DNA of 64,000 nucleotides. Source: Methanolobus sediminis. Its GTDB lineage: Archaea > Halobacteriota > Methanosarcinia > Methanosarcinales > Methanosarcinaceae. Shown piece by piece: positions 40,092 through 52,958 of the stretch; position 1 is the first letter of the stretch, and every line of letters starts with the position of its first letter. Under the pieces are notes generated by a model. That model was not told where the DNA came from. It worked only from the letters and a program-made list of their open reading frames with translations, and ran no database searches. Both the position numbers and the translations under genes were made by a program. Where the stretch lies: the NCBI RefSeq assembly GCF_031312595.1, contig NZ_CP133592.1:930001-994000 (forward strand), given 5' to 3'.

Positions 40092-40706
40092 CTATCTAGT
40101 TCCAACCAGAGAGAATATAGCTTCCAGAACATCTTTCTCAATCTCATCGACCGGCCTGTCAGTATTGATAATAACAAACCTCTCCGGATGTGCTTCTGCA
40201 AGTTTCAGATAATTTGCCCTCACTTCCTCAAGGAAATCTATCTTCTCGAATTTGGTCTGCTCACCACGGTTGCCACACCTCTCCACTGATATCTTCGGGT
40301 CAATATCAAAAAGAACTGTAAGGTCAGGGTCAACCGTCCATCCGCGGTGTATTTGCTGTATCCATTCCATTGGTTCCGGGAACTTGCCTTTAAGAGTCAC
40401 GGCCTGATATGCATACCTGCTTCCTGAATACCTGTCAGAGATAACATTCTGGCCACTTTCAAGTGCAGGAAGGATTAGTTTAGAAATGTGTTCCGCATGG
40501 TCTGCGGTGAAAAGCAAAAGCTCTGCAAGGTCATCAGTATCCGAATGAATGGCACGGTTTACAGCATCACCGATCCAGCCGGTGGTTGGCTCCCTTGTGA
40601 AAACAAAATCCTTAAAATCAGGATTTGAGCGCAGACGCTCTGTTATAGTGGACTTGCCGGAACCGTCGATACCTTCCAGAGTAATGAGTTTACCTTTCAT
40701 TGACAT
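40092..40706 (-). CDS. tmk: Thymidylate kinase
   Basis: The enzyme phosphorylates dTMP to dTDP. Motifs: P-loop LEGIDGSGKST, the DR(Y/H) motif ISDRYSGSRYAYQ and a lid region. With the start at 40706 the protein has 204 residues; the longer frame adds five residues without support. A TATA-like TCTAAATAGTA at about 40728-40738 would place transcription start at or just before this ATG, so a leaderless mRNA is likely. A small zinc-ribbon gene lies 62 bp upstream in the same direction. It ends with TAG. Confidence 0.95.
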   Translation of the reverse strand: MSMKGKLITLEGIDGSGKSTITERLRSNPDFKDFVFTREPTTGWIGDAVNRAIHSDTDDLAELLLFTADHAEHISKLILPALESGQNVISDRYSGSRYAYQAVTLKGKFPEPMEWIQQIHRGWTVDPDLTVLFDIDPKISVERCGNRGEQTKFEKIDFLEEVRANYLKLAEAHPERFVIINTDRPVDEIEKDVLEAIFSLVGTR

Positions 40707-40768
40707 CAACAATGAAAGCAAAGGAATACTATTTAGAATTTGTTCCAGAGGACAAACAGAACTTAAGT

Positions 40769-43887: not shown

Positions 43888-45324
43888 TTACTTATTCTGT
43901 AATTTAATACGCTGTGCAAGGATACATTTTCCTCCCCTGTGACCACCCAGAGGATTAAAGGTCGTTCCAAGGGAATTCATGCATCTTGCCATTACAGCCG
44001 CACCACGTGCAAGACCATCGTCTACGAATACCACGTGTTCTTCTATATTGTGATTTATTCCAAGCTCGTGAAGATATTTTAGCACCAGCTTTGGCTTGTT
44101 TCCGGTGATACCTGCTCTTCCAGTGATGCCTATCGCGCTGTCCTCAAAGACAAGACCTTCATCCTGTGCAACCTTTACAAGACGCTGGACAACACGCGCC
44201 ATTACTTCATCGATAACAGCGAACAGAACTTTCACATTGTGCTTTTCGTATATCTCAGCACCAAGCTGTGCAAGCTTATCAAGATCTGTACCATTCTCAC
44301 CGACATCACACCCTATCAGAACAACATTAATAGCATCTGCAGCTTCAGAATTTACAGGCACACTACCATATCTTGTACGTCCCTTTGGAACTTTTTCAAT
44401 GATAATGTAACTCAATATCTTCTCAGCATACTCGTTTATGACCTTGCTTTTCAGTTTCAGTGCAATACCATCAAGGGATTTGCCATCGAAAATGTCAAGA
44501 GCAGTACCTTTTTTGGAATCAACCATTCCTGTTCCTTTAATGATGGTATCAGGAATTGCACCTGCATAACCACAGAAATTTCCTATTGTCTTTGCATAGG
44601 GGAGATCCGGACTGATTATCCTGCCGTCAAGGGTTGTACCAAAGTCCATTGACAGACAGGGGTTGCGGAAATCAACATCCACCCACTTTGCACCTTCCTT
44701 GATACCGGCTGTTGCAAGCTCACCTTCCATCTCGTTAGCAACGATCTCAACACCTGTCGCACCGACAGGAGGAGTTACACTTGCCACCGCACCGTCAAAT
44801 ATGACCTTCTCAAGCTTGGAATATTTCTGGAACCTATCAGGGATATTTGAGATGGCCATTGGAGGTGTCATTCTGTTTGGTGGAACACCTGCCTGAAGAC
44901 ACCCGTCTGCCAATGCCTTGATGAATTCTCCAACCTCATCAGGTGAATCAAAACCCGCTACAACACCAGTTGAACGGACTACAAAATGAACGTCAGTCTT
45001 TATGTCAAGATTTGCCTCTTTCACAGCACCCAGAAGAGTATCCTTTACAAGTTCGCCCACAGACTCCCTTGTCAGCTCTACACCGTTAAGTGTTTTTCCA
45101 AAAACCTCTTCTCCGGGTTTTGGAGGGCGTACATCCCTTGTCATACTAACTGTTTTCTTAACAAGTCTGGTCTTTCCGTCTTCAAGGTTAGTTGCGGTAA
45201 GGATACATTTAGTGGTAGTGTTACCAACTTCTACCGAGGCTACAATAAAATATGATTTTGATTTGTCCTTTAAGTCAAGTAAACGGACTGAAGGGCTTTC
45301 TGCAATTCTTGGTTTATGTGACAT
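43888..45324 (-). CDS. Methanogenesis marker protein 14
   Basis: The 478-residue protein matches methanogenesis marker 14, a family restricted to methanogens and their relatives. It starts with an actin/acetokinase-like phosphate motif, FIVASVEVGNTTTKCILTATN, and has further ATPase-like stretches (SMDFGTTLDGRI; GAAVMARC). Marker proteins are linked to methyl-coenzyme M reductase maturation or related functions, but the role of marker 14 is not established. GAGGGA precedes the ATG. It follows thioredoxin by about 9 bp, so the two are probably one operon. Confidence 0.93.
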   Translation of the reverse strand: MSHKPRIAESPSVRLLDLKDKSKSYFIVASVEVGNTTTKCILTATNLEDGKTRLVKKTVSMTRDVRPPKPGEEVFGKTLNGVELTRESVGELVKDTLLGAVKEANLDIKTDVHFVVRSTGVVAGFDSPDEVGEFIKALADGCLQAGVPPNRMTPPMAISNIPDRFQKYSKLEKVIFDGAVASVTPPVGATGVEIVANEMEGELATAGIKEGAKWVDVDFRNPCLSMDFGTTLDGRIISPDLPYAKTIGNFCGYAGAIPDTIIKGTGMVDSKKGTALDIFDGKSLDGIALKLKSKVINEYAEKILSYIIIEKVPKGRTRYGSVPVNSEAADAINVVLIGCDVGENGTDLDKLAQLGAEIYEKHNVKVLFAVIDEVMARVVQRLVKVAQDEGLVFEDSAIGITGRAGITGNKPKLVLKYLHELGINHNIEEHVVFVDDGLARGAAVMARCMNSLGTTFNPLGGHRGGKCILAQRIKLQNK

Positions 45325-45333
45325 TTATATCCC

Positions 45334-45726
45334 TCAGATGTAAGGCTGAAGTTTCTGGATGATAGTTTGTTTAGGGACAGCACCTATAAGTTTATCGACA
45401 AACTCCCCGTTTTTGAAGATCAGCATTGCAGGAATGCTGGTGATTCCAAACTTTATGGCAGTCATTTTTTCCTCGTCCACGTTCAGTTTCCCGAATACGA
45501 CCTTTCCCTGCATTTCAACAGCCAATTCGTCAAGAACCGGGGAAAGCATGCGGCATGGACCACACCAGGGTGCCCAGCAATCCACAAGAACAAGCGGATA
45601 TTTTGACACTAACTCGTTAAAAGAAGCATCATTTATTGTTACAGGGTTTGAAGGATAGTCCTTCTTTTCCAGAGACTCTTGCAGTTGCTGCATTCTTTTC
45701 TGCCTGATAGATTCTATATCATCCAT
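45334..45726 (-). CDS. trx: Thioredoxin
   Basis: From the ATG at 45726 (AGGGTGA five bases upstream; the longer frame begins with GTG) the protein has 130 residues. After about 30 polar residues comes a thioredoxin fold with WAPWCGPCR (WCGPC at 54-58), the cis-Pro loop GITSIPAML and the ending LIGAVPKQTII. It reduces protein disulfides. Its operon with marker protein 14 hints that redox control is useful to that protein (inference). Confidence 0.95.
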   Translation of the reverse strand: MDDIESIRQKRMQQLQESLEKKDYPSNPVTINDASFNELVSKYPLVLVDCWAPWCGPCRMLSPVLDELAVEMQGKVVFGKLNVDEEKMTAIKFGITSIPAMLIFKNGEFVDKLIGAVPKQTIIQKLQPYI

Positions 45727-45939
45727 TCGATTCACCCTTTTGAATAATACAATTTACAGATATTTAACTGTAGACATGATTTAATATAGACGTGTTAATT
45801 CTTCCTACTATCTATACTCAATGCATTTAAGTTTTTGTATGGTTGTGCGATAACTCGACAATACCATGTAGTACAGGCCAAAACAAATAAACATTAAGAG
45901 GATAGATATTTAGAAAATAATAGGATATCAAGGATTAGA

Positions 45940-46962
45940 ATGGCAAAATGGACTGTTGAACATCTGCTTGGAACTGACCCGCAGGACTTTGAGGTTCTGC
46001 TCTCCCGGTTATTTTCAAAGATGGGATACCACACGGAACTTACCCAGTACTCCAGAGACAAAGGAATTGACCTGGTTATAAGGATAGAAAATTTTGGATT
46101 GGTTCACACATGGCACGTTCAGGCAAAAAGATACTCCAACCCGGTTGGTGTAAAAGATGTCAGGGAATACAGTAGCATCAGGTATCGTGACCATGTTGAT
46201 GGTGTCATAATTGTCACAAGTTCGTCCTTTACTAAGGAAGCCATTGAAGAAGCAGAGCAACATAACCTCAAGCTCATTGACGGTTACCTGCTTGTGGAGA
46301 TGCTGAACCATTATCTTCCAGATGAGTGTGCAGATTCAGATTTTCAATCTGAAAACAATGCACAAGCAAAGCAGGAAGAAAATAATACCGGCGCAATTCT
46401 CAAAAGAGGAGAACAGGTTCTTGCAAATGAAACTGTAATGGTGGGAAACGAGAAATTCACGCTTACCATCACTAACAAAAACATATTTTTGAAAAGGATA
46501 AGCTCCGGTCTTTTCTCAAAAAGTTCAGACATCGAGGAACGTATCGAACTCAAAGACCTTTTAGGACTACACTGCGAACCCGGTAAAATTGTCCTGGTAA
46601 CAGGTAACAAGAAACTTAAATTATACTCACTCAGTTCAAGAAAACTGCAGGTCATCGAAGAAATACTGGAAAGCATGCGTCCTGAATATGTCAGAGGAGA
46701 ACACCTCATCAATTCATCCCGAAATGGAACAAATCTCACTTTACTCACAAATAAACGTCTTGTAATTATGGATAATACAGGAAATGCAGAGCTTGACATA
46801 CCTAACAAAAAGATAGTTGGTGTGGAATTAAAAGGTGGATTCCTGAAAAAAGAGCAATTGATCGTTTCAGAGGATTCAGGAAACATGAAGAAACATTTTC
46901 TGATGGTTGAAAATCCTGCAGAATGGAAAGAAATGATAGAACAATGCGTGAGGAATGTCTGA
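45940..46962 (+). CDS. Mrr-like restriction endonuclease domain fused to two PH-like domains
   Basis: Residues 1-125 form an Mrr-type PD-(D/E)xK nuclease: DPQDFEVLLSRLFSKMGY, then D44 (GIDLVI) and Q61-x-K63 (VQAKRY), and SFTKEAIEEAEQHNLKLIDG. After a polar linker, residues 145-245 and 250-335 look like two bacterial PH/GRAM-like domains (GEQVLANETVMVGNEKFTLT; LTLLTNKRLVIMDNTG). Mrr proteins cut modified or foreign DNA; the PH-like parts may bind proteins or membranes. It is monocistronic with no methylase nearby. Confidence 0.82.
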   Translation: MAKWTVEHLLGTDPQDFEVLLSRLFSKMGYHTELTQYSRDKGIDLVIRIENFGLVHTWHVQAKRYSNPVGVKDVREYSSIRYRDHVDGVIIVTSSSFTKEAIEEAEQHNLKLIDGYLLVEMLNHYLPDECADSDFQSENNAQAKQEENNTGAILKRGEQVLANETVMVGNEKFTLTITNKNIFLKRISSGLFSKSSDIEERIELKDLLGLHCEPGKIVLVTGNKKLKLYSLSSRKLQVIEEILESMRPEYVRGEHLINSSRNGTNLTLLTNKRLVIMDNTGNAELDIPNKKIVGVELKGGFLKKEQLIVSEDSGNMKKHFLMVENPAEWKEMIEQCVRNV

Positions 46963-46999
46963 ATAATAACCAGGACTTCACAAGCGTGAAACCTATATA

Positions 47000-47017
47000 G
47001 TTAGCATCCATACTAAC
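47000..47017. promoter_or_regulatory. TATA element and short inverted repeat upstream of copZ
   Basis: CCTATATAG at 46992-47000 resembles a TATA box; GTTAG (47000-47004) and CTAAC (47013-47017) form a short dyad between it and the expected start of transcription. It may be the operator of a copper-responsive regulator that is not in the window. Confidence 0.35.
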
Positions 47018-47043: not shown

Positions 47044-47253
47044 ATGACAACAGAAGTTATCAAAATTGAAGGCATGATGTGCGGACACTGCCAGGCAAAT
47101 GTGGAAAAATCCATCGGAGCCGTAGCAGGTGTCAGCGATGTTAAAGTCGATCTTGCAGCAAAGCAGGCCACAGTAACCTTTGACCCTGGTGTTGCAAGTC
47201 TTGATGCTATCAAGTCAGCGGTTACAGATGCTGGTTACACCGTTGTAGCCTGA
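47044..47253 (+). CDS. copZ: Copper chaperone, heavy-metal-associated domain
   Basis: The 69-residue protein is a single HMA domain with metal motif GMMCGHC (about 10-16) and the usual beta-alpha-beta pattern ([19 protein letters not shown]). It should bind Cu(I) and hand it to the ATPase encoded 38 bp downstream. The Gly-His insertion in CGHC rather than C-x-x-C with Ser/Thr is found in some CopZ variants. GGAGG precedes the ATG. Confidence 0.93.
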
Positions 47254-51956: not shown

Positions 51957-52811
51957 TTATTTCACTTTTTCCCCAAACTTATCAATGCCACATCGATCTA
52001 TGACATCACCCAATCGTTCTCCTTCAAGGGCATCCTCCCGATAGAATTCAAGGGTCTTTTCAAGGATATCAAATACGTAATCTTTATTTTCAGTTCTTAG
52101 CAGCATGTCACCCATGCGTGGCTTTTTGCCTACTTTACCACCGACAAATATTGTAAATCCCTGTACCTGTTTCTGCATGGCATCCTTGCGGCATGCACTT
52201 ATGCATGAACCACAGGATACGCACTTATTCATATTAAGATAAAGAATACCATTCTCTATTGTGATAGCAGATGAGCCGCATGCTTTCTCGCATGCCCTGC
52301 ACATCACACAGTTCTCTTCAATGAAAAACGGCTCGCAGAATCCCATGATACCAAAGTCATTTTCCTGGACTTTGAGGCATGATGCAGGACAACCTGTTAC
52401 CGCAATCTTGAATTTGTATGGTACAGGTTCTGCAAAATAGAGCTCATCAATTTCTTCACATATTCCCTGACAGTCAATAAGTCCGCGTTTGCATACCCTG
52501 TCCCCCTGGCAGGCGACTACTGCACGTATTTTTTTACCTGAAGCTCCGGGTCCTATGTCTTTAGAATCCATGTCATTTCTGGCAGCTTCGGTATTGTCCA
52601 GATGGACAAACGGAATTTCAATTCCCTGACGTGAGGTTACGTGAACATATCCTTTGCCATAACGGTCCGCTGCATCTGCAACTGCCCGAAGGTAGTCAGA
52701 TGTCAGATTTCCACCCGCAGCATGAAGGCGCATTGAGAAGAAATCTTCCTGCCTCTGGGAAAGAAAGCCTTTCTCCTTGAGCAGGTCTTTGTTTGTGTTG
52801 GTTTTTACCAT
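51957..52811 (-). CDS. Siroheme sulfite/nitrite-reductase-like protein (Dsr-LP type) with 2[4Fe-4S] ferredoxin insert
   Basis: From the ATG at 52811 (284 residues) the protein has a ferredoxin-like half HVTSRQGIEIPFVH, siroheme-cluster cysteines C101/C107 (CQGDRVC) and C141/C145 (TGCPASC), and two [4Fe-4S] motifs (C168-C178 and C197-C207). It matches the small Dsr-like proteins of methanogens and the C-terminal half of Fsr. It should reduce sulfite, nitrite or a related substrate, receiving electrons from a partner. The divergent YHS-FrhB gene is the obvious candidate. The start is chosen for AAGTGA upstream; a GTG three codons earlier is possible. Confidence 0.88.
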   Translation of the reverse strand: MVKTNTNKDLLKEKGFLSQRQEDFFSMRLHAAGGNLTSDYLRAVADAADRYGKGYVHVTSRQGIEIPFVHLDNTEAARNDMDSKDIGPGASGKKIRAVVACQGDRVCKRGLIDCQGICEEIDELYFAEPVPYKFKIAVTGCPASCLKVQENDFGIMGFCEPFFIEENCVMCRACEKACGSSAITIENGILYLNMNKCVSCGSCISACRKDAMQKQVQGFTIFVGGKVGKKPRMGDMLLRTENKDYVFDILEKTLEFYREDALEGERLGDVIDRCGIDKFGEKVK

Positions 52812-52958
52812 TTGGGTCACTTCTGTTCCAGTTGGTATTTTAGTTACTTAATTATGCCATAGAATACACATTCAATGATTTAAAAACAAGTTTACTTGAT
52901 ATACCGTATCTTGTAAAAACATTGTGCCCTGAATTTTCTCATAAATAATAATTATAAC

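Follow-up and report, generated by a model that had tools for sequence, protein, structure and literature searches.

A gene of the methanogen genus Methanolobus, a member of the Methanosarcinaceae, encodes a protein in which a predicted nuclease domain of the Mrr family is followed by two PH-like domains in tandem, apparently a new domain architecture within this known family of nucleases. Our leading reading, which we hold tentatively, is that the protein is a resident nuclease whose PH module positions it and which acts in genome maintenance or general surveillance. The gene, at 45940..46962 on the forward strand of the window (the whole stretch of 64,000 nucleotides that was analyzed), is one open reading frame of 340 residues with an ATG start. 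A search of the genome at E ≤ 0.001 finds no match other than the gene itself, and no published description of an Mrr-PH protein was found in the open-access literature.

The N-terminal part had been assigned to the PD-(D/E)xK nucleases of the Mrr type in an earlier, sequence-only reading, and this assignment holds. Residues 12–122 (45973..46305, forward strand) match Mrr_cat (PF04471) in Pfam at E = 2e-30, with 105.7 bits against a curated cut-off of 21; at E ≤ 1 the protein also matches Mrr_cat_2, NA-iREase1 and, weakly, bPH_3, together with CH_2 and RRG7 below the cut-off. In the alignment of 53 of the 56 distinct orthologues (A1, from which three sequences with an in-frame stop were omitted), the residues E18, D44, Q61, K63 and R64 are invariant in all 53. 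When the three open reading frames shortened by the in-frame stop are included, D44, Q61, K63 and R64 are found in 56 of 56 rows and E18 in 55, the remaining row having a gap at this position. We take E18, D44, Q61 and K63 to be the catalytic residues. Compared by VIA, the Mrr part of the model aligns with AF1548 (PDB 1y88; Z 14.8, rmsd 1.9, 110 aligned), AspBHI (Z 12.5, rmsd 2.9, 129 aligned) and MspJI (Z 12.4, rmsd 3.0, 132 aligned). Judged by its sequence, the domain is active-looking, with the catalytic set intact, and is a predicted nuclease.

The gene is under strong purifying selection, with a dN/dS of about 0.1. Measured against five close orthologues, the ratio is 0.088–0.116 for the whole gene, 0.037–0.057 for the Mrr part and 0.092–0.147 for the C-terminal part. 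The two parts are joined by a linker modelled with low confidence (residues 134–151, 46339..46392, forward strand; pLDDT below 50 in AlphaFold2), and the stretch 126–150 has a mean top-residue frequency of 0.28 in the 56-row alignment, the lowest of the four stretches compared. One in-frame stop is present in 3 of the 57 copies found in the family, a TGA in genome G045 and a TAG in G035 and G037. The TAG lies near residue 257 in both of the latter (loci L041 and L062, of one genus), and the part downstream of it is conserved. Since methanogens of the Methanosarcinaceae can read TAG as pyrrolysine, read-through is possible in these two copies, as is decay.

The C-terminal half is borderline by sequence alone, because its bPH_3 scores in Pfam, 18.2 and 20.3 bits, stay below the cut-off of 23; among 40 orthologous C-terminal parts, 19 give a bPH_3 match at E ≤ 0.1. 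The two PH-like domains proposed earlier for this half are nevertheless confirmed, at the level of profiles and models, by the PH2 profile, AlphaFold2 and Foldseek. AlphaFold2 folds the chain into two units, PH1 (residues 160–245; 46417..46674, forward strand) and PH2 (residues 256–338; 46705..46953, forward strand), each made of seven strands and one C-terminal helix. The helix of PH2 contains W329, which is invariant in the alignment of 53 sequences. As the VIA matches of the full-length model mostly fell in residues 145–252, the tandem was modelled alone (pLDDT 90.2, pTM 0.85), and its VIA matches were again mostly to PH1. Foldseek matched the tandem to 30 PDB chains at E ≤ 1e-3, mostly PH, PTB or tandem-PH proteins. 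The C-terminal model also aligns with the PH-PTB pair of IRS-1 in VIA (Z 12.5, 164 aligned), at an rmsd of 6.6, a high value which means that the two domains are arranged differently from those of IRS-1.

Profile searches bore out the second repeat and not the first. Profiles were built for the tandem (A2, from 40 of the 53 sequences) and for PH1 and PH2 (A3 and A4, 25 sequences each). Among solved structures, the PH2 profile finds the bacterial PH domains 3dcx (E 0.0068) and 3hsa (E 0.014), and a profile of the whole-protein orthologues matches solved bacterial PH domains as well. The PH1 profile found no match in the same search, and the single window sequence matched only ribosomal proteins (E 0.54 and 1.8). 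The mutual likeness of the two domains is weak, with an hhalign probability of 74.7 over 41 columns.

The surface of this module gives some indication of its use. The mean net charge over the 53 orthologues is +5.2 in PH1 (span 153–248), +1.5 in PH2 and −3.7 in the Mrr domain, and the β1–β2 loops are two residues long in the models of both PH1 and PH2. The short hairpin of the bacterial PH domain has been taken as an argument against phospholipid binding at that site (PMC2817789). The tandem PH of human SSRP1 binds DNA via a positively charged patch and showed no histone binding in that study (PMC4685450). Taken together, the charge pattern, the short loops and the structural matches with chromatin-related tandem PH proteins favor docking to protein or DNA over lipid binding as the use of the module, and the earlier suggestion that these domains are suited to partner binding reads them rightly. 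Short hairpins are compatible with lipid binding too, and are not decisive against it.

The gene is usually found at one chromosomal place, beside a thioredoxin and a DUF2114 protein, and its nearest neighbors are housekeeping genes. The thioredoxin is the divergent neighbor (45334..45735, reverse strand; Pfam 2.3e-29), with the DUF2114 protein beyond it (43888..45324, reverse strand; Pfam 4.4e-233); both serve as context only. They are present at 35 and 37, and a radical-SAM gene at 31, of 40 loci that include the window, some of which end at contig ends, where a missing neighbor is no proof of absence. Other genes nearby in the window encode a 4-HFC-P synthase, a His_biosynth protein, a thymidylate kinase, a nitrite/sulphite-reductase-type protein and an FrhB-type protein. 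We also considered a functional link to the downstream copper ATPase and dropped it: the ATPase cluster is found at 20 of the 40 loci, mostly just downstream, and not at the other 20. By eye, positions 46992–47017 show a TATA-like box and, after it, an imperfect inverted repeat (GTTAG...CTAAC), ahead of a metal-binding-type small open reading frame at 47044. A regulator of the copper genes may bind there, in which case these genes would be on a transcript of their own.

Near-full-length orthologues appear in the match lists of 57 of the 111 Methanosarcinaceae genomes searched. They are carried by 26 of 27 genomes in the window's own genus (g1), by the one genome of g3, 6 of 11 in g7, both in g9, all eight in g10, all six in g11, 2 of 3 in g12 (one of the two split between two contig ends) and 6 of 7 in g14. 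Beyond these 57, G048 of genus g1 has the gene broken in pieces. No near-full-length copy was found in the 30 genomes of g13, the genus with the largest genomes (G074–G103, four of them listed without a genus label), or in the 16 genomes of g2, g4, g5, g6 and g8. A search of 237 genomes of the class added two carriers, G184 and G186, which belong to a different family within the order. Over a sample of 392 genomes of the phylum, the C-terminal profile matched in 42. In 39 of these, all of the family, the match is the known orthologue; the other three matches are weak, two of them in family genomes to a PAS histidine kinase and one, in another, to an unassigned 231-residue protein.

The manner in which the gene is absent is informative as well. 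The space between the thioredoxin and the radical-SAM gene is clean at L162, L164 and L165 (g7) and at L166 (g12), and a tblastn search with orthologues found no gene remnant in seven such regions (best E 0.056). At L161, transposase-type and helix-turn-helix open reading frames occupy the nuclease's place. Sequence identity of the nuclease tracks that of DUF2114 (Spearman 0.68), as does that of the thioredoxin (0.67; 33 of the 40 loci). Because the locus is mostly fixed, the absences keep their flanks and identity follows DUF2114, a chromosomally resident gene with vertical descent and losses fits better than island turnover.

In a tree of Mrr domains with 62 rows, the 14 rows of the target group form one clade with a support of 98/97. 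The 48 other rows are a sample, comprising 39 proteins from 38 genome regions chosen from a longer list and nine from eight plasmid records. The tandem-PH profile A2 gave no match in these 48 relatives at E ≤ 1, and it is on this profile, not on the Pfam scan, that the absence of PH domains rests. Mrr_N was found by Pfam in 18 of the 48 (among the first 25 of 55 families listed), and at least one transmembrane segment is predicted in 17 by a plain hydropathy threshold, which is crude. Other combinations are seen among Mrr proteins: in L186 2137–3693, from a genome of the genus Methanolobus, Pfam finds a sulfatase-modifying-factor domain beside an Mrr domain, with two membrane segments predicted, and L182 2382–3587 encodes an Mrr protein that ends, as read by eye, in a DnaJ domain.

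The protein had been pictured as a single-gene unit, which proved incomplete. In many genomes a small open reading frame lies directly upstream, with the pattern FDQKCxTCGTWM ... TYxCxECGLxY of a zinc ribbon. The protein is 54–79 residues long at 14 loci, and its reading frame overlaps that of the nuclease by 4 nt in 6 of the 14 clustered loci; examples of the zinc-ribbon gene are L049 7726–7914 (forward strand) and L047 9125–9289 (reverse strand), as well as L054, L058, L059, L067 and others. Pfam assigned no family above the cut-off to the four members scanned. In a search of 237 genomes, a profile of 11 of these proteins (A6) gave matches at E ≤ 6.6e-14 in 31 of the 57 nuclease-carrying family genomes, the copy in G041 having an in-frame TGA; in the other 54 family genomes its best E is 0.0057. 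In every one of the 33 genomes with both genes (the 31 of the family plus G184 and G186), the zinc-ribbon gene lies 3–17 nt upstream on the same strand, and the ancestral unit was therefore probably a two-gene operon of zinc-ribbon protein and Mrr-PH nuclease, a pairing that is new here. G184 and G186 keep the pair although its surroundings differ: DUF1786 lies upstream in one genome, and the second has a phosphoglycerate kinase and a glycosyltransferase.

The window itself has the nuclease alone. The intergenic stretch 45736..45939, where the zinc-ribbon gene is located in other lineages, holds none according to the ORF scan, the DNA alignment and the genome search: no open reading frame of at least 25 residues ends near the nuclease start, and the whole genome has no zinc-ribbon match at E ≤ 0.05. 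The same state, a nuclease with no zinc-ribbon match, is found in 26 of the 57 family genomes, this one among them. We infer that the window's lineage once had the gene and later lost it. In other families of the order, the zinc-ribbon protein is present (E < 1e-8) in 41 genomes that have no nuclease, so the link between the two may be loose. Twenty of these nuclease-free neighborhoods were looked at; DUF1786 is just upstream in eight and HMG-CoA reductase in five, and the genes downstream vary, with V4R, a DUF5803 protein and once RmuC. Such varied neighbors mean that the zinc-ribbon protein is not specific to the Mrr-PH nuclease, and since they are mostly metabolic or unassigned, they suggest a broader role for it. 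The RmuC-family gene is in G185 (L271 1565–2620, Pfam 2.5e-33), 24 nt after the zinc-ribbon gene and in place of the Mrr-PH nuclease.

A role in defense had also been put forward for the protein, and here the context gives no support. PADLOC matches the protein to PDC-S02 (best 1.5e-15), ZorD and mREase_IV, all within residues of about 3–126 only. Two of ten neighbors match as well, at 40092–40721 (PDC-M51B 7.7e-14, VakA 9.2e-8) and 51957–52820 (BrxP 5.7e-7); Pfam identifies the former as a thymidylate kinase (3.3e-41) and the latter as being of the nitrite/sulphite reductase type (3.1e-35), and both matches were discounted because these are housekeeping genes. With PADLOC seeing only the Mrr part of the protein and these two neighbors, a defense island was rejected. 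The survey of neighborhoods found no spread in defense islands, which goes part of the way to refuting the claim. A search of 72,556 plasmid and 50,697 phage records found no full-length Mrr-PH copy; matches came from 326 plasmid and 5 phage records, none covering 80% of the query, and the 25 matches listed align to the Mrr part. A pattern scan of viral contigs found no relative, and phage or plasmid cargo was rejected on these results.

The nearest rival to our reading, possible though rather unlikely in our estimate, is a stand-alone type IV-like restriction enzyme, its Mrr domain cutting foreign or modified DNA that the PH tandem or a partner would recognize. The families that match best are restriction nucleases (Mrr_cat, PDC-S02, ZorD and mREase_IV, with the folds of MspJI and AspBHI), and the gene is dispensable, missing as it is in many relatives. 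It is harder to reconcile such an enzyme with a mostly fixed locus, a vertical pattern and strong purifying selection, with PADLOC-matching neighbors that are both housekeeping genes, with plasmid and phage records that hold no full-length copy, or with a protein in which Pfam at E ≤ 1 finds no domain known to read DNA modification, such as SRA or the Mrr_N winged helix. The transmembrane segments predicted, if crudely, in 17 of the 48 Mrr relatives bring to mind another arrangement, a nuclease parked at the membrane to cut incoming DNA as SNIPE does, where the PH module would replace the transmembrane anchor of some relatives. Some SNIPE homologues have N-terminal PH-like domains, and PH domains can localize to membranes, as the authors of the SNIPE study note (PMC13190303). 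The window protein, however, has no transmembrane segment by hydropathy and no DUF4041 or GIY-YIG domain by Pfam, and its two-residue β1–β2 loops form a site where phospholipid binding is not expected in bacterial PH domains (PMC2817789); we find this arrangement very doubtful. The tight pairing with the zinc-ribbon gene, adjacent in 33 of 33 genomes and overlapping by 4 nt in 6 of 14 clustered loci, would also be seen in a toxin–antitoxin-like pair whose zinc-ribbon member restrains the nuclease. This is the least probable of the alternatives, and a highly improbable one, given the 26 of 57 family genomes that keep the nuclease without a zinc-ribbon match, the window's included, and the 41 others with the zinc-ribbon protein and no nuclease; an essential-antidote role was rejected since so many genomes keep the nuclease alone.

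A resident nuclease in maintenance or surveillance thus stands ahead of restriction, membrane parking and a toxin–antitoxin pair, in that order, and this reading draws on the invariant catalytic residues, the low dN/dS, the synteny, the single clade and the PH fold. Two considerations count against a maintenance role. The gene is dispensable, as seen in g13, five other genera and four clean losses, and losses would be rarer for a core repair enzyme; known Mrr-family proteins, moreover, mostly restrict foreign or modified DNA. In the mechanism we propose, the N-terminal Mrr domain would cut DNA, and the PH tandem, flexibly linked and non-cutting, would position it by binding a partner. This might be a further subunit or a protein that sits on DNA, or it might be DNA itself, bound through the basic PH1. 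The zinc-ribbon mini-protein, presumably co-expressed in the ancestor as the first gene of the operon, is perhaps an accessory binder of nucleic acid or protein. In the cell the protein would most likely process DNA that is damaged, branched or unprotected; mobile antiviral defense is the less likely task. A bolder form of this proposal, improbable in our judgment, is a previously undescribed two-gene chromatin-guided nuclease, the zinc-ribbon protein together with an Mrr domain whose FACT/Rtt106-like tandem PH would dock onto chromatin proteins or DNA.

In a family of methanogens, a restriction-type nuclease domain seems to have become a lasting component of the genome, with a docking module of a kind best known from eukaryotes. 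A partner, if found, would show by what means cells direct such a nuclease to its target and prevent it from doing harm, and the zinc-ribbon/nuclease pair is a small two-protein system that is directly testable.

There are several known systems with which the protein can be compared. The Mrr_cat (PF04471) nucleases, among them AF1548 (1y88), have the same N-terminal fold and catalytic residues, but the C-terminal tandem PH is unmatched in the 48 relatives sampled. MspJI and AspBHI share the Mrr-like nuclease domain, the matching part being C-terminal in those enzymes and N-terminal in the window protein. Both are modification-dependent, with a modification-reading domain that precedes the nuclease part, whereas no known reader was found in the window protein. 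The tandem PH proteins Rtt106, Spt16 and Pob3/SSRP1 give Foldseek matches over the whole tandem, at about 10–15% identity, a query TM-score of about 0.39–0.49 and an rmsd of about 7–9; these are eukaryotic histone-chaperone proteins without a nuclease. SNIPE is a GIY-YIG nuclease with DUF4041 whose defense function was shown by experiment, and although the window protein has neither domain, it resembles some SNIPE homologues in combining a nuclease with a PH-like domain (PMC13190303). Closest to the C-terminal half are the bacterial PH domains (PF08000/PF14470; 3dcx and 3hsa), with which it shares the seven strands and helix, the short β1–β2 loop and the PH2 profile match; it scores below the bPH_3 cut-off and differs from them in having two such domains in tandem, joined to a nuclease.
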